64,000 nucleotides of DNA, from assembly GCA_025055115.1 (NCBI GenBank), contig JANWYJ010000070.1, positions 1 to 64,000 on the forward strand. The letters are read 5' to 3'. The stretch comes from Gemmata sp. (GTDB lineage: Bacteria; Planctomycetota; Planctomycetia; Gemmatales; Gemmataceae). Made by a program: the position numbers and the translations under genes. Position 1 is the stretch's first letter. Each line of letters begins with the position of its first letter. Below are positions 52,697 through 63,048 of this stretch, in pieces. Below the pieces are notes generated by a model. That model made no database searches and was not told where the DNA came from. It worked only from the letters and a program-made list of their open reading frames with translations.

Positions 52697-53908
52697 ATGC
52701 GGCGGACAAGCAACATCCTTCTGATCCTGCTCCTTCTGGTGCCACTCGCAGCCGCCCCAGACACAGCCACCGCCCAAGGCGAAAGCAAAAAGCCCGATGG
52801 TTTCTCCGGACGCACCCGCGAGGGCAAGGCCCGGTTACTGAAGGAATTCGGTGGTTCCGAAGAAGGCGAAGAAGCTGTCATGCTGGGGCTAGCGTGGCTA
52901 ACCCAGCAGCAAAAGCCTGAGGGATATTGGGAATACGATTCGGAGCACTATACCTCGGACCATGCCGCGGCCACGGGAATGGCCGTGTTGGCGTTTCTCG
53001 GAGCCGGCCAATCGCATAAAGACGGCCGCTTCAAGCAGACCGTCCAAGCTGGACTCGATTGGTTGGTCAAGAACGTCAACATGGAGCAAGGCCCTCAGCA
53101 CGGCAAGATCAACACTATCCGCTACATGTACTGCCAAGGGATCGCGACTTTGGCCTTGTGCGAAGCCTATGGGATGACCGGGGACCCCGCCCTGAAAAAA
53201 CCAGCCCAAGCCGCGATCGACTACATCCAACGAGCGCAAGGCCGCAATGGCAGTTGGGGCTACTACGCCGGCCAGGAGAGCGATACCTCCATCGTCGGTT
53301 GGCAGATTCAAGCCCTGCACGCGGCGATGTTGACCCAAGACCTGGTTGTGGACCGCCGGGTGATCGACCGCGCTTTAGCGTTTCTCGACTCGGTCAGTGC
53401 GGACCGCTACAAAGCCACCTACGGTTACCGCTGGCCACCCGGACAACACGCCACCTCCTGCACCGCGATCGGGTTACTGTGCCGGTACTATGTGGACGGC
53501 TGGCGACGGGAGCACCGCGGCTTCGACGAAGGTTCCCAAGGGTTAATGAAACGCGCGCCCACGCCCAACGATCGGAAAAACATCGACCTTTATTACCTGT
53601 ATTACGCCACTCAGGTGGTTCGTTTCTATGGCGGCGAAGAGTGGAAAATTTGGAATGAAGGCCCCTTGGGTCCCGACGGCAAACGGCGCGGCGGCCTGCC
53701 GGAATTGCTGCTGAGCGTGCAAGACCGCACTCCCCCCCATCGGGGCAGTTGGCCCGCGGAGATTGATTGGATGAACGGACAAGGGTTCGGTCGGAACTGC
53801 GGTCGGCTGGGCACCACGTGCATGTGTCTATTGACACTGGAGGTGTACTACCGTTACCTCCCCGAAGTCCCCCGGTTACCCAAGCCAGAAAAACCCGTGG
53901 AACCCTAG
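52697..53908 (+). CDS. Secreted terpenoid-cyclase/alpha-toroid repeat protein
   Basis: A 403-aa exported protein with a signal peptide (ILLILLLLVPLAAAP, cleavage near ATAQG). The mature part shows prenyltransferase/squalene-oxidase-type alpha-toroid repeats, e.g. AVMLGLAWLTQQQKPEGYWE, AGLDWLVKNVN, AIDYIQRAQGRNGSWGYY and GRLGTTCMCLLTLEVYYRYL. The DxDD motif of squalene-hopene cyclases is absent and the protein is secreted, so a binding or inhibitor-like role is more likely than cyclase activity. Many planctomycetes encode such proteins. The start follows GGAGG. Confidence 0.88.
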   Translation: MRRTSNILLILLLLVPLAAAPDTATAQGESKKPDGFSGRTREGKARLLKEFGGSEEGEEAVMLGLAWLTQQQKPEGYWEYDSEHYTSDHAAATGMAVLAFLGAGQSHKDGRFKQTVQAGLDWLVKNVNMEQGPQHGKINTIRYMYCQGIATLALCEAYGMTGDPALKKPAQAAIDYIQRAQGRNGSWGYYAGQESDTSIVGWQIQALHAAMLTQDLVVDRRVIDRALAFLDSVSADRYKATYGYRWPPGQHATSCTAIGLLCRYYVDGWRREHRGFDEGSQGLMKRAPTPNDRKNIDLYYLYYATQVVRFYGGEEWKIWNEGPLGPDGKRRGGLPELLLSVQDRTPPHRGSWPAEIDWMNGQGFGRNCGRLGTTCMCLLTLEVYYRYLPEVPRLPKPEKPVEP

Positions 53909-54364: not shown

Positions 54365-56068
54365 ATGGTCACGTACGAATTCCATCGTCCACTGGCGTGG
54401 TGCCGGTTTCTTTTTCGCGATGTGCTGTTTTCGGGTCCTCCAGCCACGGATACACGCCCCTGTCGTTACTCCCTGCTGCTGCTGCTGGTTCTGCCGGGTG
54501 TGCTACTGTATCCGACGCGGTCGTTTCATCTGTTAGAACCCGACGAAGGACGTTACGCCCAAATTCCCAAGGAGATGCTGGACAGCGGTTCGTGGATTGT
54601 GCCGACATTGCAAGGGGAACCATACCTCGACAAGCCGCCCCTGCTGTACTGGCTCGTAGCGATCAGTTACTGGTTGGGAGGAGTTTCGCCGGACGTGGCG
54701 CGGTTGGTTCCCGCGGTGTGCGTTCATCTGACGATTTTGGCCGTGTATGGGATTGGTCGCCGAAGCCTGGGCGAACGGGCCGCGCTGTGGGCGGCATTGC
54801 TACTGACCGTGGCCCCGGGGTTCATGTGTGTCGCGCGGCTGCTATTGCTCGATGGCCTGCTGACGCTGTGTGTGACGGTATCGGTCCTGTGCGGTTTTGA
54901 AGCGGTACGCACCGGCACCTTCCAACCCCGGTGGTGGCTGGCGGCGGCTCTGGCTTCGGGTTTAGGATTTCTCACCAAAGGTCCCATTTCCGAAGTGCTG
55001 CTGTTTGTGCCTCTATGGATGTTCGCGTATCTAGCCGGTTCCAGTGCCGTGCGTACAACGCTGACCCCAAATGGGACAAATCCTTCGCCACCAACAGCCA
55101 CAGATTCCGGGATAGAACATCCTCCCACCAACTCGACGCCAAATAGGTCAAATCCTGTGCCCGTCAATCCCCCGCTGGTGTGGTACATGATCTTCTTGGC
55201 GGTCGTTTTGGCCGTGAATGTGCCGTGGTATGTCGCCATCTATCTTCATCAACCGCACTTTTTGAAGTACTTCTTTTGGGAACACAACGTCTTGCGGTTC
55301 TTGCAGCCATTCGATCACCTGCAACCGGTCTGGTACTACGCGCCGATCCTGGTGGGCGGACTATTCCCCGGCACGATCTTTCTGGCGGTGTATGTGTGGC
55401 AACTGCTCCGGGGAGAACTTTCCGGGCGACCGTCGCTGGCCGGAGGATTCTGGTTGCTAGCCGGGGGGTGGTGTGTCGTCTTCTTCAGTTGTTCGGGCAG
55501 CAAACTGCCCACGTACATCCTGCCGGCGTACCCGTTTTTGTGTTTGGCCATTGGCGAATTTATGGCCCGCACGCGGTGGAACACGGCATTTGGCCCGCGC
55601 GGGCTGATCGGTGCGATGGCCGCGATCGTCGGTTTCGCTCACTTCGTGGCCATTCCGTGGTACGCTCAGGAACGGTCGCCCGTGGGAAAACCGGAATTGC
55701 TCGAACGCTATGTGACGGACCCCAATGTGCCGGTGGTGTGCTTTCCCCGCAATTGCGATTCGGTGGCGTTCTACTTCAACCGGTCCGATTTGAAAAGTGT
55801 TCGGACGAAGAACATCAATCAGTTGATGGTCGATTGCCACCATCGCCCCCAAACTGTGATTCTCTTCACCCATCGCGATTCCCTGGCCGGCTTCCGCAAT
55901 ACTCTGCCACCGAGTTTGAAAATCGTCGCGACGGCAACCTTGAAACGCAAAGGCCGCGGCGGCCTTCTGGAGAAGCTCACCGGTTCGACACCCTGGGGAT
56001 TGTGCGACATCGCGGTGGTGGTGCCACTGTATCAGGTGCCTCCCCCACCGACCGATGGCGCCGAATGA
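54365..56068 (+). CDS. GT39/ArnT-like membrane glycosyltransferase
   Basis: A 567-aa multi-pass protein of the GT-C fold. The catalytic acidic motif is FHLLEPDEGRYAQIPKEML and the second family motif YLDKPPLLYWLVAISYWLGG. About ten to twelve membrane helices follow, with a soluble C-terminal region. The family uses polyprenyl-phosphate sugars to modify proteins or lipids such as lipid A. A Ser/Thr/Pro-rich insertion with two NGTNPSPPT-like segments lies around residues 235-265. The ATG has GAGGGGTGAAGCG upstream. The gene precedes a minus-strand glycan cluster. Confidence 0.9.
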   Translation: MVTYEFHRPLAWCRFLFRDVLFSGPPATDTRPCRYSLLLLLVLPGVLLYPTRSFHLLEPDEGRYAQIPKEMLDSGSWIVPTLQGEPYLDKPPLLYWLVAISYWLGGVSPDVARLVPAVCVHLTILAVYGIGRRSLGERAALWAALLLTVAPGFMCVARLLLLDGLLTLCVTVSVLCGFEAVRTGTFQPRWWLAAALASGLGFLTKGPISEVLLFVPLWMFAYLAGSSAVRTTLTPNGTNPSPPTATDSGIEHPPTNSTPNRSNPVPVNPPLVWYMIFLAVVLAVNVPWYVAIYLHQPHFLKYFFWEHNVLRFLQPFDHLQPVWYYAPILVGGLFPGTIFLAVYVWQLLRGELSGRPSLAGGFWLLAGGWCVVFFSCSGSKLPTYILPAYPFLCLAIGEFMARTRWNTAFGPRGLIGAMAAIVGFAHFVAIPWYAQERSPVGKPELLERYVTDPNVPVVCFPRNCDSVAFYFNRSDLKSVRTKNINQLMVDCHHRPQTVILFTHRDSLAGFRNTLPPSLKIVATATLKRKGRGGLLEKLTGSTPWGLCDIAVVVPLYQVPPPPTDGAE

Positions 56069-56140
56069 CCCGCCTGCAAGCGGCCCCCCCGGAAAGGCCA
56101 GCGGCCCCCTTCACGGTCAACGTTTGTCTCACAATACTCA

Positions 56141-56253
56141 GGGATGGAAAAGCCATCCGCAATTTGTGCTTGTTCACAAGGACAATCTTTCTTCAGAGCC
56201 AGCTGAAGAAATGGGGATGGAAGAGGCATCCGCAATTTGTGCTTGTTCACAAG
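56141..56253. repeat. Paired 40-bp direct repeats, period 73
   Basis: Copies lie at 56141-56180 and 56214-56253 with two mismatches, sharing CATCCGCAATTTGTGCTTG. The first can fold as GGATGG/CCATCC. They lie in the convergent gap between the GT39 gene and the dehydrogenase-like gene, whose stop is at 56274. Confidence 0.95.
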
Positions 56254-56273
56254 AGGTTGACGGGAGTGAGTCC

Positions 56274-57545
56274 TCAGGCGGCGGCTCGCCCCGCGGCGAC
56301 GTAAACAATCGCCGGATGATGGGCGAATCCCGCGGCGAGGAAATGTGTGGGATCAATCAACCGCGGTTGGTTCATCACCTGCTGCAGCTGTGCTGGCGTC
56401 AGCTCTTGATACTGGGGCCACGGTGTCGCAACAACGCCCAAGTCGGCTCCGCGGAGGGCATCCACGGCACTGGCCGCCAGCTCCACGCCTTCCAGTTCCG
56501 GCGTCGGCTGGTGTATCGCCGGATCATGGGCGCGAACTTTCACGCCTCGGCTGAGTAGCCACCGGCACAATTCGACCGAGCTGGAACGGCGGAGCGTATC
56601 GGTGCCTGGCTTGTACGTCAGCCCCAGCACAGCCACAGTGGAACCGGATGACACACCGGCGAGCTGTTCGCGCAGCCAGCGCTTCTGGCATTCGTTACTG
56701 TCCCAAACCCCGCGGAACAGAGGCGCAGGCCGATGATAACGTTCGGCCAACTCCAATAGAAAACCGATGTCGCGGGCCAGCGTCCCTCCAGCAAAGGCAG
56801 CCCCGGGTGACAGATACGCCCGTGGCCCGATCCGCTGCTCGCTTTTCAGGCCCCTTTCGACTTCTTTAGCATCGGCACCAACGACTTCACACAGCCGAGC
56901 CAATTCATTGATGAACGCCACCGAAGTGGCCAAGAACGCATTGACCGCATGCTTGGTCATTTCGGCAGAAGCCACCGACATCCACACCCGCTCTCCGCCA
57001 AAGGGGGCGAGCAGTTGTGTGAGTTGAGCACGATCAGGCGGATCACAGCCAATGACTATCCGATCGGGTGCGCGGAAACAATTCAGGGCTTGCCCCAAGC
57101 GAAGATTTTCCGGCGAACAGGCCACGCGTACGCCCCGGTTTCGCCAGGCGGTGGCAAGCTGAAGTCCAAATCCCACCGGCACTTGCGACGAAATGAGCAC
57201 CAATTGCCCCGGTTGCAGATACGCGGCGATGTCGTCAAGTCGGTCGCGGACCCACGCCACGTCGGCCCGGTCGTTCTCATCCACGGGGGTGTCGAAGCAC
57301 ACCCAGATCACCTCGGCGGAAGGAATCGCCTCCGCGGCGTGGCTGGTGAACCGCAGCCGCCCAGCGCTCTGCTGCTGTGCGATCAAGGCCGCCAAGCCCG
57401 GTTCATCAACAGGTGGCTTGTTCGCCACCAGATTGGCCACCGTCTGCGGCTGCGGGTCCAACCCGATGACTTCATGCCCCCCTTCGGCCAGGCAAGCTGC
57501 CGTCACGCTGCCCAAGTGCCACAGTCCGTAAACGGTCACACGCAT
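56274..57545 (-). CDS. Nucleotide-sugar dehydrogenase-family protein lacking the catalytic Cys
   Basis: A 423-aa protein of the UDP-glucose/GDP-mannose dehydrogenase family with all three domains. The NAD-binding start reads VYGLWHLGSVTAACLAEGG. The central domain keeps Lys198 and Asn202 in MTKHAVNAFLATSVAFINEL. The segment that normally reads GGSCFPKD is GGTLARD here (253-259), so the nucleophilic cysteine is absent and the loop is one residue shorter. UDP-binding residues such as VLGLTYKPGTDTLR remain. It may not complete the four-electron oxidation. The chosen ATG follows GAGGG. It is 62 bp after the epimerase gene. Confidence 0.85.
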   Translation of the reverse strand: MRVTVYGLWHLGSVTAACLAEGGHEVIGLDPQPQTVANLVANKPPVDEPGLAALIAQQQSAGRLRFTSHAAEAIPSAEVIWVCFDTPVDENDRADVAWVRDRLDDIAAYLQPGQLVLISSQVPVGFGLQLATAWRNRGVRVACSPENLRLGQALNCFRAPDRIVIGCDPPDRAQLTQLLAPFGGERVWMSVASAEMTKHAVNAFLATSVAFINELARLCEVVGADAKEVERGLKSEQRIGPRAYLSPGAAFAGGTLARDIGFLLELAERYHRPAPLFRGVWDSNECQKRWLREQLAGVSSGSTVAVLGLTYKPGTDTLRRSSSVELCRWLLSRGVKVRAHDPAIHQPTPELEGVELAASAVDALRGADLGVVATPWPQYQELTPAQLQQVMNQPRLIDPTHFLAAGFAHHPAIVYVAAGRAAA

Positions 57546-57607: not shown

Positions 57608-58570
57608 TCAGGCGGCTTTTCGGGCTTCCAGAACCCACGGATTGGCTCGAAGATAGTCGAGCGTGCGAATCACCGCTTCCCGGATGCTGACTTTCTGCCG
57701 CCAACCGTAGGATTTGAGCTTGGTGGTATCGAGAAAGATGAACGGGCTGTCCCCAACCCAACCACGAATGCCTCCGGTGTAGGTTCGTTGGGGTTGCAGG
57801 CCTAACCGTTGCGTGATCCAATCGAGCGAATCGTTCACCTCGCAGTATTCATCCGCACCGAGGTTGACGATGTTAATGGGTTCGGTGGCTTTTTCGATCA
57901 CTGTGAAAATGGCATCGATGCAGTCGTGCACATACAGGTAGCTTTTCCGCTGCCGACCGTTGCCCAACACCTCGATGGTGTGCGGGTTGGCTCGCAGTTT
58001 GGCGTAAAAATCGAAAACGTGGCCGTGGGTGTAGCGCTCGCCCAAAATCGATACAAAGCGGAAAATGTAAACCTGAAAGCCGAAACCGTGGGCATAGGCC
58101 GTGAGAAGTCCTTCGCCCGCGACCTTGCTAGCCGCGTACAGACTCGTTTGAATCGGGAAGGGAGCGGTTTCTGGAGTGGGGAAGATGTCCGGTTCGCCGT
58201 ACACCGATCCGGTGGAGGAAAAGCCGATGCGGCGGATACCGTGGGTCCGCATCGCTTCGAGAACATGAAACGTGGCGATGGTATTTTGTTGTAAGTCGCG
58301 CTGCGGATGATGCGTCCCGAAACGGACATCAGCGTTGGCCGCCAGGTGAAAAACGAACTCACTCCCGGCGATGGCTTTCGTCAACGCCGGCAGGTCTAGC
58401 AAGTCGCCCTCGATGAGGCGGAAGCGCGGATTCTGCAACGCCGTTTCGAGGAACCGCCGTTGACCCGTACTGAAGTTGTCGTAGGCGGTCACCTCATGGC
58501 CGCAGGCCAACAGCCGATCCACGAGGTTACTGCCAATAAACCCCGCCCCACCAGTAACAAAGTAACGCAT
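57608..58570 (-). CDS. NAD-dependent nucleotide-sugar epimerase
   Basis: A 320-aa extended short-chain dehydrogenase. The NAD site is VTGGAGFIGSNLVDRLL, with the Ser/Tyr/Lys triad in FSSTGSVYGE and LYAASKVAGE. RKSYLYVHDCIDAIFTV is typical of UDP-glucose or UDP-glucuronate 4-epimerases. The substrate is a UDP-sugar by analogy only. The ATG has GGAAGGAACTCC upstream. It belongs to the minus-strand glycan operon with the GT2 and dehydrogenase-like genes. Confidence 0.92.
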   Translation of the reverse strand: MRYFVTGGAGFIGSNLVDRLLACGHEVTAYDNFSTGQRRFLETALQNPRFRLIEGDLLDLPALTKAIAGSEFVFHLAANADVRFGTHHPQRDLQQNTIATFHVLEAMRTHGIRRIGFSSTGSVYGEPDIFPTPETAPFPIQTSLYAASKVAGEGLLTAYAHGFGFQVYIFRFVSILGERYTHGHVFDFYAKLRANPHTIEVLGNGRQRKSYLYVHDCIDAIFTVIEKATEPINIVNLGADEYCEVNDSLDWITQRLGLQPQRTYTGGIRGWVGDSPFIFLDTTKLKSYGWRQKVSIREAVIRTLDYLRANPWVLEARKAA

Positions 58571-58660: not shown

Positions 58661-59407
58661 TCATGCTGCGGAGGTATGCCGAGCGAAACGGATGCGCACC
58701 AGGTCTTTGAGGTTCTTCCAGTTCCCGCGAATCAGTTGCAGCCGTGTATCGCCATCGTCTTGCCAATGGACCCCGATTTCTTTGATCTTGTAGCCCGATC
58801 GAACGGCCAGCGCCAGGATTTCGACATCGAACATATAGCCATCGATCCGTTGCCGGGAAAAGAGATCGCGGGCCACGTGGCCGCGGAAGAACTTGAAGCC
58901 GCATTGGGTGTCGGCGATCCCCCACAGACCCACCAGCGGTCGCATCAGCAAAGCAAAGCCGGTCGAGCCGAGGCGGCGGTACCAAGGGCGCTGGGCGTTG
59001 ATCGCGGCCCCAGCGACTTTCCGTGAACCAATCACAATGTCGTACCCATGCTGGAACCACGGGAGGACTTTTTCAATTTCTTCGATGGTGACTTTGTAAT
59101 CGGCGTCGAGAAAGCCGCAGATGTCGCCCGTGGCCGCCAGCATTCCTTCCCGGACACCGCGTCCTTTGCCCCGGCGTTGCGGTTGACCCAACACAGAAAC
59201 GGGCATTTCGGACCGCAGGGCCGCGGCAGCTTCGCGGGTGCCATCGGTCCCGTCGGCGGCGACGATCAGCTCATATTTGTAGCCACGTGGTTCCAAGTAA
59301 GTCTGAATCGCCCGGAGCGTGCGCTGGATCGTGGCGACTTCATTAAACGCCGGGATGACTAAACTGAGTCTTGGAATCCCGTTCATGGCGGCATCCGTTC
59401 CTTCCAT
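58661..59407 (-). CDS. Family 2 glycosyltransferase (ALG5/dolichyl-phosphate type)
   Basis: A 248-aa GT-A fold enzyme. LSLVIPAFNEVATIQRTLRA begins the domain, AADGTDGT and the metal-binding FLDADYK follow, and GIADTQCGFKFFRG is diagnostic of the dolichyl- or polyprenyl-phosphate glucosyl/mannosyltransferase branch. No membrane helix is seen, so it probably works at the cytosolic face. Such an enzyme could supply polyprenyl-phosphate sugar for GT-C enzymes such as the GT39 protein nearby. The ATG at 59405-59407 has AGGGGGG upstream; ATG 59386 is also possible. Confidence 0.92.
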   Translation of the reverse strand: MEGTDAAMNGIPRLSLVIPAFNEVATIQRTLRAIQTYLEPRGYKYELIVAADGTDGTREAAAALRSEMPVSVLGQPQRRGKGRGVREGMLAATGDICGFLDADYKVTIEEIEKVLPWFQHGYDIVIGSRKVAGAAINAQRPWYRRLGSTGFALLMRPLVGLWGIADTQCGFKFFRGHVARDLFSRQRIDGYMFDVEILALAVRSGYKIKEIGVHWQDDGDTRLQLIRGNWKNLKDLVRIRFARHTSAA

Positions 59408-59448
59408 ATCGGCCCCCCTGATGTGATTCATTCGGCTTTTTCGCTGCA

Positions 59449-62400
59449 TCAAGGAGCCGTGGATAGCGGTTCCAAGCCAAGAAACCGCAGCTGCGCGGCA
59501 ATTGTGCGACCATCGGGCGGTGCCAACGTTTGCGTGTGCGAGAATCGGCATTCGATCCATCGGGCTTGAGGGCCTCGGGCCACGGGTGCCCGCACTTCGA
59601 ATTCACCCAGCCCCAACGACCGGCGCGCAACCTCCACACCATCGACCCAAATGGTCAATTCCGTGAAAAAGGCACTGTTGCCCCCGACTTCAGGAATGAA
59701 CCCTCGCATGACGACCTCACTGTCCTCCGCCGGCGGCAATAACTTGGCCCGAAGATGCTCCCGGCACCAACCATCACCGTAGATACCCACCTGCTCCAAT
59801 TTGGGATGGCTCAAATCCGCCGGAAAGACCTGGAGTCGCTCGGGGGGGCGTGCGCGGGCCTCATCGCGAGCTTCAAAGCCAATCGAATGGATGAGAGCCG
59901 CCACCTGCCGCCCATCCGGTTCGGGAAGAATCTGCAGATGGGAGAATTGTAGTTCGACCCACCGGGGGCCAATGCCCAAAGGACCAGCCGCCCGAAGCTC
60001 GAATTTGCCAGGATGAAGCGTCCGGCGTTCGACCACCACCCCATCCACACGAACCACGGCTTCGGTCTGGAAGTTTTCGGCTCCCGGTAGCCCCGGGATC
60101 AGGCCCCGAATCACGCATTCTTGGTGGGAATCGGTCTGGCTGAGACGGATTTTGGCAGTTGCTCCGATCCAGCCATCTTCGACAAAGCCAGAATATTCTA
60201 AATGCGGGTGTTGCAAGTCGTGCGGGAACTGATGAACCCCCGCCGGCGGCACGAACGCAGCGTATTCGTCTTCCGAGATAACGGAAATGTCGCGTACATG
60301 ACCGCTGAGCCAACGCCGATCGCGAGGCAGGTCGCGTGCCCACAGCTTCTCCGCCGCGGGGAGTTTGTTCGGGTTCCGTGTCGGTTCGCCAAAATCGAAC
60401 GCCAGATAGTGGCCCCCGGCCAGCGCTTGGGGCGTTAACGGAGGCGATACCAACCGGGCCGAACCAATTCCAACAGCCCCCAACGCGACGCGCCGATCGC
60501 CAATCACCTGCACCGGCGGAACCTGCCGCCGCACAGGATCAACCCGGCAGGAACCCGTGGTGTTCACTAACACCCGAACTTGGGGAGTCGGATTCAGCAC
60601 ATGGACCACCAGGGCTTGCCCCACCCCGGCGAAGGTGCGCTTGGCGAAGCTGGGATCGGCTTCGAGCCGGTGCAGGGCGATTTCCCGAGCATCGTCCATC
60701 CCCAAAAAAGCCTGGCGGGCTCCCGTGGCGTCGCAGAACACCAGAACATTCCGCAACCCACCCAACGGAGTACAGATCAGCGGCTGGCTCTTTTCCGGAT
60801 AATGGAAGCGATTCAACACCGACAGCGAGCCACTGGGGATAACCACCAACGTGCGTTCGGGGTGGAGCCGACCGACGTCCGGTTGCGACGTCATCAAGCG
60901 ATGCAACAGAACCCCCTGTTCGGGATCGCGAATGTGCGGACCGCGGCTGTGGGGGTGGTGGGCCAGGTAGGTGTCCCGCAGCCGTTGGAAGGCCCCTGCC
61001 GATTGTTCGCGGTAATGCCAGGCCCGCGGCATCTCTTCCATCCCCGGCAGTAAGTTGCGCACCATCATGTCGAACTGGTTGACACCCAGGCAAAGTGTGG
61101 GGATGCCGCGCAGTTCCGGGACCAGCAGTTTCGTCAGATACAAATTATCCGCGCCTATGAGAATCTGATCGACTTCGCCGCGTTGTTGGCGCTGCTGAAC
61201 TTCGGCTTGCAACTCCCGCAAGGTCTGGCGGCCCCAATGGCTTGGGAGTTCAACGCGAAATTCCCGTCCACGGCTTTGGTCGACATACCAGAACTGCACC
61301 CGAGCATTCTGAATAGCGAGAATGAGTAACCCCGCCGTAGCTGCGAAAAAGGCCCACCTGGTCCGACGCGACAACACCCAAGCGGCAACCGCGGCCCACA
61401 AAAATGGTTGCAGGAACATCACCAGTTTGAAGAGGCCAAAGGCACTTTTCGTCGTAAACAACAAGACTCCCAACGCGCTACCCACGGCAAGGAGGGCCGC
61501 AAACGGGCTACCCCGACGCAGTCCGACCACCACCGGCACACCAACCACCACCAGCAGGGCCAAGCCCACCGCAATCGCCACGTTCTGGAATTCTTCCGAT
61601 TCCGGACCGGTAAAAGGGAGCAATCCCCAAACCAATGCCCCCAACCGCGGCGTCAGGTTGAAAGGGAACATTTCTTGCACGCGGTATGCCGCGTTCGTGC
61701 CCTGACTGCCTTGCGCGAGAATAAATCGCGCCGTGGCTGATACATACACCGGGAACATCGCGAACATCACACCCACGGCAAGCGCCGCATGCAACAGATA
61801 CCGACGATCTAACTGCTGAACGATAATGCGCCGCACACCCAACACCACGCACGCCCCGACCAACAGCGGAATGACCTCCGGGTAAAACAACGTCTGCCCC
61901 GCCAGAACCACCCCCGTCACACTCGCCCGAGCTACCAACAACGACCCTGGCACCCGCGACCACCGGGCATTGATCAGTGCCAGCGCTACACACAAGATCG
62001 CCAGGCCACTCACCTGGGCGATCAACTGTTGCACCACCCCATAGGTGGTTTGTGACGACACCATGAGCAACCCGGCGGTCATCACTCCCACGGAACGCCG
62101 CCCCGTACCCGCAATCGCCAAGCCGCCGGCGGCGGCCACCAGGGCCAGATTCAAGGCCACGATCACCGGCATGAAAAGTTGTACCACCGGCCCGCCCGTC
62201 CAAGCCGATACCAGCGCCAGCAGAACCTCGGAACCAGGCCGCGCTTCCGACAGCGGAAAGCCAAAGAATGCCTGCGTGTAATCGGTTCCACAGCCCAAAT
62301 CCTGACCATCGGGAGCGACCACATACCCGTGTTCGCGGTAACCGGTGGCCATCAAGCAGTAGTTGGCCATGTCGTCATTGCCGTTGGCCAACCAGTTCAA

Positions 62401-62748
62401 GCCATAACCGAACATCGGCCAAGCGGTTACGCCAAAGGTTGCCAGCAAAAGGACCGCCCAGACCCGACTGTGACGCCACAACCCCCGCCACCGCGGGCCG
62501 CTCGGTCGATACCGGGCCAGGATGGCCACAGTTCCCAAAAGTGTCACCACCACGATCGGCCATGCCGACACCCGTACCGGATAACCCCAGCGAACGAAAA
62601 AGTACGTCAGAGCGACAATCGCCACAAAACCCACCGTCGGCGCAAACAGCAGCGTTGTCAGTTGCCAACGGTAACGGGCCAGACTCAACAGAGCCAGCCC
62701 GGTACACGCCCACAACAGAAACAGGGACCAACTGAGCAGCACCGCCAT
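59449..62748 (-). CDS. 1099-aa membrane protein with duplicated beta-type C-terminal module
   Basis: The first 490 residues or so contain about twelve hydrophobic segments, like GT-C glycosyltransferases, with acidic NGNDDMANYCLMATGYREHG after the third or fourth helix. Residues about 490-830 are soluble. The C-terminus is a tandem duplication (841-960 and 975-1099): both copies start with FP-D-L-HP-LE, contain RG-IP and VDGV-V-RR, and end with FSH-Q-L--PDGR. I do not recognise a family; a polymerase, ligase or glycosyltransferase role in surface glycan is inferred. The ATG follows GGAG. The GT2 gene starts 41 bp downstream. Confidence 0.75.
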   Translation of the reverse strand: MAVLLSWSLFLLWACTGLALLSLARYRWQLTTLLFAPTVGFVAIVALTYFFVRWGYPVRVSAWPIVVVTLLGTVAILARYRPSGPRWRGLWRHSRVWAVLLLATFGVTAWPMFGYGLNWLANGNDDMANYCLMATGYREHGYVVAPDGQDLGCGTDYTQAFFGFPLSEARPGSEVLLALVSAWTGGPVVQLFMPVIVALNLALVAAAGGLAIAGTGRRSVGVMTAGLLMVSSQTTYGVVQQLIAQVSGLAILCVALALINARWSRVPGSLLVARASVTGVVLAGQTLFYPEVIPLLVGACVVLGVRRIIVQQLDRRYLLHAALAVGVMFAMFPVYVSATARFILAQGSQGTNAAYRVQEMFPFNLTPRLGALVWGLLPFTGPESEEFQNVAIAVGLALLVVVGVPVVVGLRRGSPFAALLAVGSALGVLLFTTKSAFGLFKLVMFLQPFLWAAVAAWVLSRRTRWAFFAATAGLLILAIQNARVQFWYVDQSRGREFRVELPSHWGRQTLRELQAEVQQRQQRGEVDQILIGADNLYLTKLLVPELRGIPTLCLGVNQFDMMVRNLLPGMEEMPRAWHYREQSAGAFQRLRDTYLAHHPHSRGPHIRDPEQGVLLHRLMTSQPDVGRLHPERTLVVIPSGSLSVLNRFHYPEKSQPLICTPLGGLRNVLVFCDATGARQAFLGMDDAREIALHRLEADPSFAKRTFAGVGQALVVHVLNPTPQVRVLVNTTGSCRVDPVRRQVPPVQVIGDRRVALGAVGIGSARLVSPPLTPQALAGGHYLAFDFGEPTRNPNKLPAAEKLWARDLPRDRRWLSGHVRDISVISEDEYAAFVPPAGVHQFPHDLQHPHLEYSGFVEDGWIGATAKIRLSQTDSHQECVIRGLIPGLPGAENFQTEAVVRVDGVVVERRTLHPGKFELRAAGPLGIGPRWVELQFSHLQILPEPDGRQVAALIHSIGFEARDEARARPPERLQVFPADLSHPKLEQVGIYGDGWCREHLRAKLLPPAEDSEVVMRGFIPEVGGNSAFFTELTIWVDGVEVARRSLGLGEFEVRAPVARGPQARWIECRFSHTQTLAPPDGRTIAAQLRFLGLEPLSTAP

Positions 62749-63048
62749 GCGCAACTCCGGTTTCGCCCATCCTGGCATCGCCACCCGAATTGGGAAGACT
62801 CATAGCGGATTGGGGTCTTGGACGCAATCCGATTCCAAGCGGCTACCGAGCCATGCCCTCTGGCGAGACGAACCAATGGTCGGTTGAGGCCGATTCTGGA
62901 AGGAAACCGCGGGAACCTGGATCGACTGGCCGACTGCGAGAAACTGGATCGATTGGGCAACCGGGCGTGGCCCAGCAAGCGCCGACTGCAGAGGAGTTAG
63001 CACGACATGAAAGCTCTTGAGAGGTTGACCGTCGCCGATTCGAAGCGA
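62749..63048. other. 300-bp gap between glycan operon and moeA
   Basis: It carries the probable promoter of the glycan operon (minus strand). A 27-bp imperfect tandem (62913-62939 and 62940-62966) shares GGATCGA and TGG. No clear hairpin or promoter was identified. Confidence 0.5.

Follow-up and report, generated by a model that had tools for sequence, protein, structure and literature searches.

UDP-glucose dehydrogenases (UGDs) and their relatives are routinely annotated as four-electron, uronate-making enzymes, and their catalytic Cys260 is described as the covalent catalyst of the second oxidation (PMC4794789). What a member of this family does when it has no such cysteine is the question raised by a gene that we call UGDx, located in a 64,000-nucleotide stretch of Gemmata sp. 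DNA (the whole stretch analysed, hereafter the window). A first-pass annotation had described its product as a UGD relative that lacks the catalytic Cys and retains the three-domain plan, in the neighborhood of an epimerase and a GT2. The genes considered here are as follows.

52697-53908, plus strand: prenyltransferase/squalene-cyclase alpha-toroid-like protein (Pfam matches sub-threshold)
54365-56068, plus strand: PMT/ArnT-like membrane glycosyltransferase, convergent with UGDx (PF13231, PF02366)
56274..57545, minus strand: UGDx, a Cys-less UGD-family protein of 423 aa (ORF, Pfam, TIGR03026, model)
57608..58570, minus strand: GalE-like SDR-type epimerase, just upstream of UGDx (PF01370)
58661..59560, minus strand: GT2 glycosyltransferase of the polyprenyl-phosphate-hexose type (PF00535); true start possibly later
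59449..62784, minus strand: large protein of 1111 aa that matches no Pfam or NCBIfam family and by eye looks multi-membrane; it may be a GT-C enzyme

The epimerase and the GT2 both lie upstream of UGDx on the same strand, as annotated. The UGDx frame runs uninterrupted from an ATG at 57545 to a stop at 56274-56276 on the minus strand. All three UDPG_MGDP_dh Pfam domains are recognized (PF03721, PF00984 and PF03720; 119.4, 83.1 and 82.9 bits against gathering scores of 27, 25.4 and 30), which confirms the three-domain plan, and the protein scores 296.5 bits against TIGR03026 (cut-off 189.8). Its closest solved relatives by sequence (phmmer) are UDP-glucose dehydrogenases, and its AlphaFold model (mean pLDDT 88.3, only 61-67 over the reaction-centre loop, residues 241-260) has the family fold, matching BceC (2y0c) with a TM-score of 0.92. 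Homology to UDP-glucose dehydrogenases extends through all three domains of UGDx; the protein is 33-37% identical to 16 canonical planctomycete sequences and stays below the curated NCBIfam cut-offs of the TuaD, AglM and UDP-ManNAc dehydrogenase equivalogs (237/700, 202/670, 110/750 and 107/459 bits). The host genome also encodes a canonical GGSCFPKD enzyme (L001) and a GGHCIPLD enzyme (L002).

The active site was compared column by column in 18 Cys-less and 16 canonical sequences (L002 being kept out of the canonical group), with the residue numbers of the Streptococcus pyogenes and human enzymes obtained by offset arithmetic. The positions that matter most are listed below.

56769..56792, minus strand: AGGTLARD, residues 252-259, with Asp259 retained and Thr255 (56781-56783) in place of the catalytic Cys
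56940..56954, minus strand: Lys198 and Asn202 (Lys204 and Asn208 of S. pyogenes), kept; invariant in 34/34 sequences
57096..57098, minus strand: Leu150 in PENLRLG, replacing Glu145 (S. pyogenes)/Glu161 (human); Leu in 18/18 against Glu in 16/16
57183..57185, minus strand: Gln121 in SSQVPVG, replacing Thr118/Thr131; Gln in 18/18 against Thr in 16/16
57516..57521, minus strand: Trp9-His10 in GLWHLG (NAD loop), replacing Gly9-Tyr10; 18/18 against 16/16

The absence of the catalytic Cys is borne out in all 18 Cys-less sequences, which carry Thr at this site. The first-pass annotation had read the motif as one residue shorter than the canonical one, and this is incorrect: a one-residue deletion at the Cys is rejected by the phmmer alignment to 4a7p, which pairs GSCFPKD with GGTLARD without a gap from the Leu of 'yLspgaafaggtlard' through the Asp, and the only nearby length difference between UGDx and 4a7p is one extra residue before the Cys loop. 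GGTLARD occurs in 18/18 Cys-less sequences, five of which (L060-L063, L069) came from searching for a GGTLARD-type motif itself. The retention of Lys198 and Asn202 was correctly noted, and Arg238, Asp259 (Asp264 of S. pyogenes by offset), Glu146, Asp30, Lys312 and Arg319 are likewise invariant in 34/34 sequences. The equivalents of Asp29, Arg244 and Arg327 are kept in the Cys-less clade (those of Asp29 and Arg327 in 34/34 sequences), as is the intersubunit Arg, and the equivalent of Thr83 is found in all Cys-less members except L062 (Val).

The two groups share the fixed residue at 52 positions and are fixed for different residues (at least 94% within each group) at 24 columns; 15 of these 24 fall in the NAD loop (9-11), the KST loop (119/121), the PEFLKE loop (144/147/149/150) and the Cys loop (252/254-258). 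Given these 24 columns and the GGTLARD motif in every member, the residue pattern of the Cys-less group is not due to chance. Cys260 and Gly9 are among 18 residues reported as invariant across 229 family sequences (PMC4794789); according to our mapping of these residues, done by hand, the Cys-less clade retains 14 of them (counting Thr83, which is Val in L062) and alters four, namely Gly9 to Trp, Thr118 to Gln, Gly257 to Ala (Ala252 of UGDx; Ser in Lawsonia L067) and Cys260 to Thr. Tyr10 is also changed to His, and Glu145 to Leu, in 18/18. Tyr10 is described as catalyzing thioester hydrolysis (PMC4794789), and the human E161Q mutant, at the position equivalent to Glu145 by offset, as having been caught as a thiohemiacetal (PMC3184952; cf. 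the title of 3khu). We read this pattern as the signature of an enzyme that would retain the first half-reaction and from which the second has been removed. The main unexplained change of the clade is the Trp at Gly9, which leaves the predicted NAD binding uncertain.

The family tree proposed in the first-pass annotation indeed places the GGTLARD-type proteins in one well-supported clade. In a maximum-likelihood tree of 35 sequences, whose bootstrap had not fully settled (0.981) and which included L002 on a very long branch and L067 flagged for odd composition, the 18 Cys-less proteins stand on one side of a long-stemmed branch supported at 100/100. HMM scores are two-peaked, with Cys-less sequences at 393 bits or more and canonical ones at 288 or less. 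When 199 Planctomycetota genomes were searched with a profile, 94 had a match at the E-value used; the window's own protein scored 707 bits and every other match 360 bits or less. Thirty loci were returned, the window's own and 29 others; all 29 read GGSC[FL]PKD, and no intermediate between the two types was found among them.

The clade is present in Planctomycetota, Acidobacteriota, Rhizobium, Lawsonia and four IMG/VR contigs. Nine Gemmata-group proteins, the Acidobacteria member L047 (patterns including GLWH) and the Rhizobium and Lawsonia members were found without the motif; L060-L063 and L069 were found through it, and the IMG/VR members L125-L128 through the GLWHLG and GTLARD patterns, so that these widen the range of the clade and are not independent evidence for the motif. 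The AGGTL(A/G)RD pattern matched in 17/392 genomes, with a UGD-like frame in only five of the 17 loci (the window's own and L060-L063), and a reversed control pattern matched in seven genomes; in the phylum of G442, 2/149 matched and both are UGDx. Within the genus, the full gene is found in 9/19 genomes (own included), and a fragment occurs in the 65%-complete G018. Three Lawsonia records matched, of which one was used (L067); it groups with the planctomycete L062 (100/99), which suggests gene transfer. The four IMG/VR contigs are classed there as viral (putative), and two of them, L126 and L127, seem to be almost identical copies of a single locus.

A pseudogene or a sequencing error was considered and rejected: the frame is intact, orthologs in eight further same-genus genomes are 77-89% identical, and dN/dS is low (0.06-0.17 over 15 pairs from six Gemmata-group genes in six genomes, with synonymous sites near saturation in many). 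UGDx is under purifying selection; the single branch of 18 members, the low dN/dS and the concerted replacements together show that the gene is not decaying.

UGDx belongs to a cassette of nine genes in the order epimerase, UGDx, SDR, Gfo/Idh, GHMP kinase, nucleotidyltransferase, SIS isomerase, HAD phosphatase and transaldolase. This full order is found in Rhizobium (L066/L068), Acidobacteria (L047/L094), a planctomycete (L093) and the Gemmata group (L035/L037/L038/L041), with the nucleotidyltransferase and SIS isomerase in one frame in L047 and the HAD phosphatase and transaldolase in one frame in L093. Lawsonia L067 has all nine genes in a different order, and L036, L090, L091 and L092 show part of the cassette before the contig ends. 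Among the IMG/VR contigs, L128 carries eight of the nine genes (HAD not detected); in L126 the nucleotidyltransferase, HAD, transaldolase, SIS and kinase genes adjoin UGDx, whereas the SDR and the Gfo/Idh protein are matched only weakly; the short contig L127, a shorter near-copy of L126, yielded neither of these two in the cassette type, and L125 has only weak matches to them. The cassette is split in three genomes (the window's, G017 and G002): the large protein, GT2, epimerase and UGDx lie at one place and the SDR-to-transaldolase block elsewhere (window and L084, on another contig; L034 and L085; L039 and L086). In G001, 49 bases separate UGDx from the end of its contig, and a different contig carries the kinase. 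Overall, in 22 UGDx loci (a tally without the G018 fragment), the HddA-like kinase was on the fetched stretch in 16 and elsewhere in the genome in four, and was not determinable in two (L092, L125).

The linked enzymes were scanned against NCBIfam in one cassette, that of Rhizobium L066. The kinase matches HddA (168 bits, cut-off 600), the nucleotidyltransferase MurU and HddC (130/250 and 92/300 bits), the SIS isomerase GmhA (60 bits, cut-off 209) and the HAD phosphatase GmhB (119 bits against 178), the last passing only the broader domain models TIGR01656 and TIGR01662. The sole specific model passed is TIGR02134, by the transaldolase (PF00923; 340 bits against a cut-off of 282), and the nearest models of the Gfo/Idh protein, levoglucosan and inositol dehydrogenases, are matched well below cut-off. 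Judged from these matches, the cassette has the layout of a pathway from sedoheptulose 7-phosphate to an NDP-heptose, too diverged to name the sugar; since the heptose enzymes fall under their specific cut-offs, this sugar need not be a standard heptose.

A comparison within the genus links UGDx to one cassette partner in particular. The cassette-type kinase is found in 12/19 same-genus genomes at 84-100% identity, including all nine with full UGDx; in G006, G010 and G012 the kinase and the rest of the cassette are present and UGDx is absent. Between these UGDx-minus cassettes and eight UGDx-plus Gemmata-group cassettes (the ninth, G001, being left out of the SDR comparison), the Gfo/Idh proteins are 72-96% and the kinases 82-97% identical, and the SDRs only 46-51%. 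The Gemmata SDR is 61-65% identical to that of Acidobacteria L047 and 57-60% to that of Rhizobium L066, both above the 46-51% seen with the UGDx-minus type. The two SDR types read SGGGATGPRPDFAAY(A/G)ASK in the UGDx-minus loci L087 (G010), L088 (G012) and L089 (G006), and SGGGATAPLPRIS(S/A)YAASK in the UGDx-plus Gemmata-group loci. UGDx and this SDR thus come and go together, which suggests that dehydrogenase and SDR form a pair, as enzymes of two consecutive steps would. The null explanation is that the two genes adjoin, so that a single recombination could swap both without any shared reaction.

The gene directly upstream of UGDx in 16/18 aligned members is a homolog of the window's epimerase (in the two others it lies farther upstream, at about 1.9 kb in L090 and some 10 kb in Lawsonia L067). 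The best solved relatives of the window's copy are annotated as UDP-glucose 4-epimerase or SDR oxidoreductase; its best NCBIfam match is nonetheless TIGR01181 (125 bits, cut-off 365). A role as 4,6-dehydratase was considered and set aside: these enzymes carry Asp-Glu at the site where the protein has STGSVYG, and we therefore read it as epimerase-like. The best NCBIfam match of the GT2 is a dolichyl-phosphate hexose transferase (56.8 bits, under the cut-off of 375), and clear homologs of it occur in Gemmata-group loci and L047 and not in the Rhizobium stretches. A homolog of the large protein stands beside the GT2 in seven further UGDx-plus and three UGDx-minus Gemmata-group loci. The convergent membrane glycosyltransferase may use a polyprenyl-linked sugar as substrate. 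Between it and UGDx, the peptide HPQFVLVHK occurs in two overlapping ORFs of different frames (56068-56274), a hint of a short direct repeat, and a terminator-like hairpin lies at 56188-56211. A promoter scan of the UGDx operon found none (1.8 expected), and the operon scan gave 12 terminator-like sites against 7.9 expected (sd 2.8).

Our working hypothesis, a tentative one to which we give a little less than an even chance, is that UGDx is an NAD-dependent two-electron nucleotide-sugar dehydrogenase, most likely of an NDP-heptose-type substrate, that would plausibly make a C6 ketone. NAD use, the substrate, the site of oxidation and the role of the SDR are what we infer from the observed homology, concerted replacements, single clade, gene linkage and SDR swap. 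The transaldolase, the GmhA-like SIS isomerase, the HddA-like GHMP kinase, the GmhB-like HAD phosphatase and the HddC/MurU-like nucleotidyltransferase would supply the substrate in this order, and UGDx would carry out one two-electron oxidation in place of the four-electron oxidation of UGD. The carbon that UGD enzymes oxidise, C6, is a secondary alcohol in an NDP-heptose and would yield a ketone. Because a ketone cannot become a thioester, the thiol, the hydrolytic Tyr10 and Glu145/161 would be dispensable, so that a ketone endpoint would account together for the replaced Cys260, Tyr10 and Glu145 and for the kept Lys204, Asn208 and Asp264. Reshaping of the pocket could make room for the additional C7 group. 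The keto sugar would next be acted on, for example reduced, by the SDR exchanged along with UGDx; the GalE-like and Gfo/Idh enzymes may take the same sugar as substrate, and the GT2 of the Gemmata group may transfer it to a polyprenyl carrier. One change that could speak against this predicted redox mechanism is the Trp of the NAD loop. Counting against the hypothesis, too, are the location of the heptose-type set on a separate contig in the window's genome, the missing (L127) or weak (L125, L126) SDR and Gfo/Idh matches and the pLDDT of 61-67 over the reaction-centre loop.

The residue pattern would also fit an enzyme whose target is a primary alcohol, at C6 of an NDP-hexose or at C7 of an NDP-heptose, and which releases the resulting aldehyde for a step of the aldolase, aminotransferase or reductase type. 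The set does contain a transaldolase/FSA-type enzyme (PF00923, TIGR02134) that could extend an aldehyde; this protein passes a plain transaldolase model, however, and is a better fit to sedoheptulose 7-phosphate supply, and canonical enzymes are reported not to release the aldehyde (PMC10538703), so that we hold this course to be unlikely. The order of steps in canonical UGDH is debated in these reports (PMC3184952, PMC10538703), and human C276A is said to oxidise added aldehyde still (PMC3184952); the loss of the Cys alone thus does not forbid aldehyde-level chemistry. Could UGDx even remain a four-electron enzyme, with Thr255, Cys143 or another residue in place of the Cys? Human C276S is reported to build a covalent adduct (PMC3184952), and Cys143, two residues before the conserved Pro145-Glu146 of an active-site loop, is found in 15/18 Cys-less and 0/16 canonical sequences; Cys327 is likewise present in 15/18 Cys-less members and not in the canonical sequences. 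Yet Cys143 is Tyr in three members (L060, L061, L069) and therefore cannot be required throughout the clade, and the only Cys in 18/18 Cys-less sequences, Cys219, is shared by 15/16 canonical ones. A clade-wide takeover by another Cys was therefore rejected, none being both clade-specific and invariant, while such a takeover stays conceivable for those members that carry Cys143 or Cys327. With Tyr10, Thr118 and Glu145 also gone, and the GGSCFPKD enzyme L001 already in the window's genome, four-electron chemistry is very improbable.

The first-pass annotation had offered an alcohol-aldehyde step, another redox reaction or a binding protein, a list that covers most possibilities; the evidence favours its redox part, in the form of a two-electron reaction, and the last item keeps some weight, since Gly9 of GxGxxG is Trp. 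UGDx would then be a nucleotide-sugar-binding scaffold, carrier or regulator, which the change of the dinucleotide loop in 18/18 members would suit; but further NAD-contacting residues listed in PMC4794789 are retained (Asp29, Arg327, and Thr83 except in L062), as are Lys204, Asn208 and Asp264, and a protein that only binds could do without some of these, which makes this role improbable. We give still less credence to a redox-neutral epimerase or isomerase that would hold NAD(H) and oxidise, then re-reduce, the same carbon. Losing the second half-reaction would leave a reversible first step, and the bulky loop Trp could, speculatively, accompany a tightly held cofactor; against this, the cassette already has a GalE-like epimerase, and we know of no UGD-family member that acts in this way.

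Returning to the two-electron dehydrogenase, the UGDx gene is a member of a conserved UGD-family branch that lacks the Cys of the second oxidation, and its product probably carries out one oxidation of an uncharacterised sugar. No paper on point for a Cys-less UGD clade or for the UGDx gene set was among the matches listed in a search of open-licence literature. The proteins of this clade would be misannotated as uronate-making enzymes. They provide a natural test of the roles of the Cys, Tyr10 and Glu, evolution seeming to have dropped the second half-reaction and kept the first, and the few enzymes encoded in the linked cassette offer a way to identify a nucleotide sugar that is probably a constituent of cell-surface glycans in several phyla. 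A bolder extension, which we consider possible but doubtful, is that the product of the cassette is an undescribed nucleotide-activated higher-carbon sugar, either a heptose with a C6 keto group or another C6 modification or a longer or bicyclic, bradyrhizose-like sugar, and that UGDx would be the first two-electron secondary-alcohol dehydrogenase of the UGD fold, paired with a dedicated SDR and distributed through gene transfer to planctomycetes, acidobacteria, rhizobia, Lawsonia and possibly also phages.

Known systems offer partial parallels. The O-antigen (bradyrhizose) operon of Bradyrhizobium is described as comprising eleven sugar-modification genes, including a dTDP-glucose 4,6-dehydratase-like gene, and as thought to make an unusual higher-carbon sugar, its genes being called unknown before the paper's own mutant screen (PMC4743980). 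Set side by side with the UGDx cassette by description, it is a tempting parallel and a lead only; Bradyrhizobium was not found among the best 15 of 940 plasmid records listed. Models of the D-glycero-D-manno-heptose pathway (GmhA, HddA, GmhB, HddC) are among the best specific matches of the linked SIS, GHMP kinase, HAD and nucleotidyltransferase proteins, whereas the UGDx cassette falls below the equivalog cut-offs (in L066) and adds the transaldolase, Gfo/Idh, SDR and UGDx. The ADP-heptose 6-epimerase HldD/RfaD acts at C6 of an NDP-heptose, possibly the site of chemistry that it would share with UGDx; its protein family is unrelated, and the analogy is one of mechanism only. The closest comparison remains with the UGDs themselves (BceC, UgdG, TuaD and human UGDH), which UGDx resembles in its three domains, its fold and the Lys, Asn and Asp of the first oxidation, and from which it differs in having neither the catalytic Cys nor Tyr10, Thr118 and Glu145, in the Trp at Gly9, and in forming its own clade with its own gene neighborhood.
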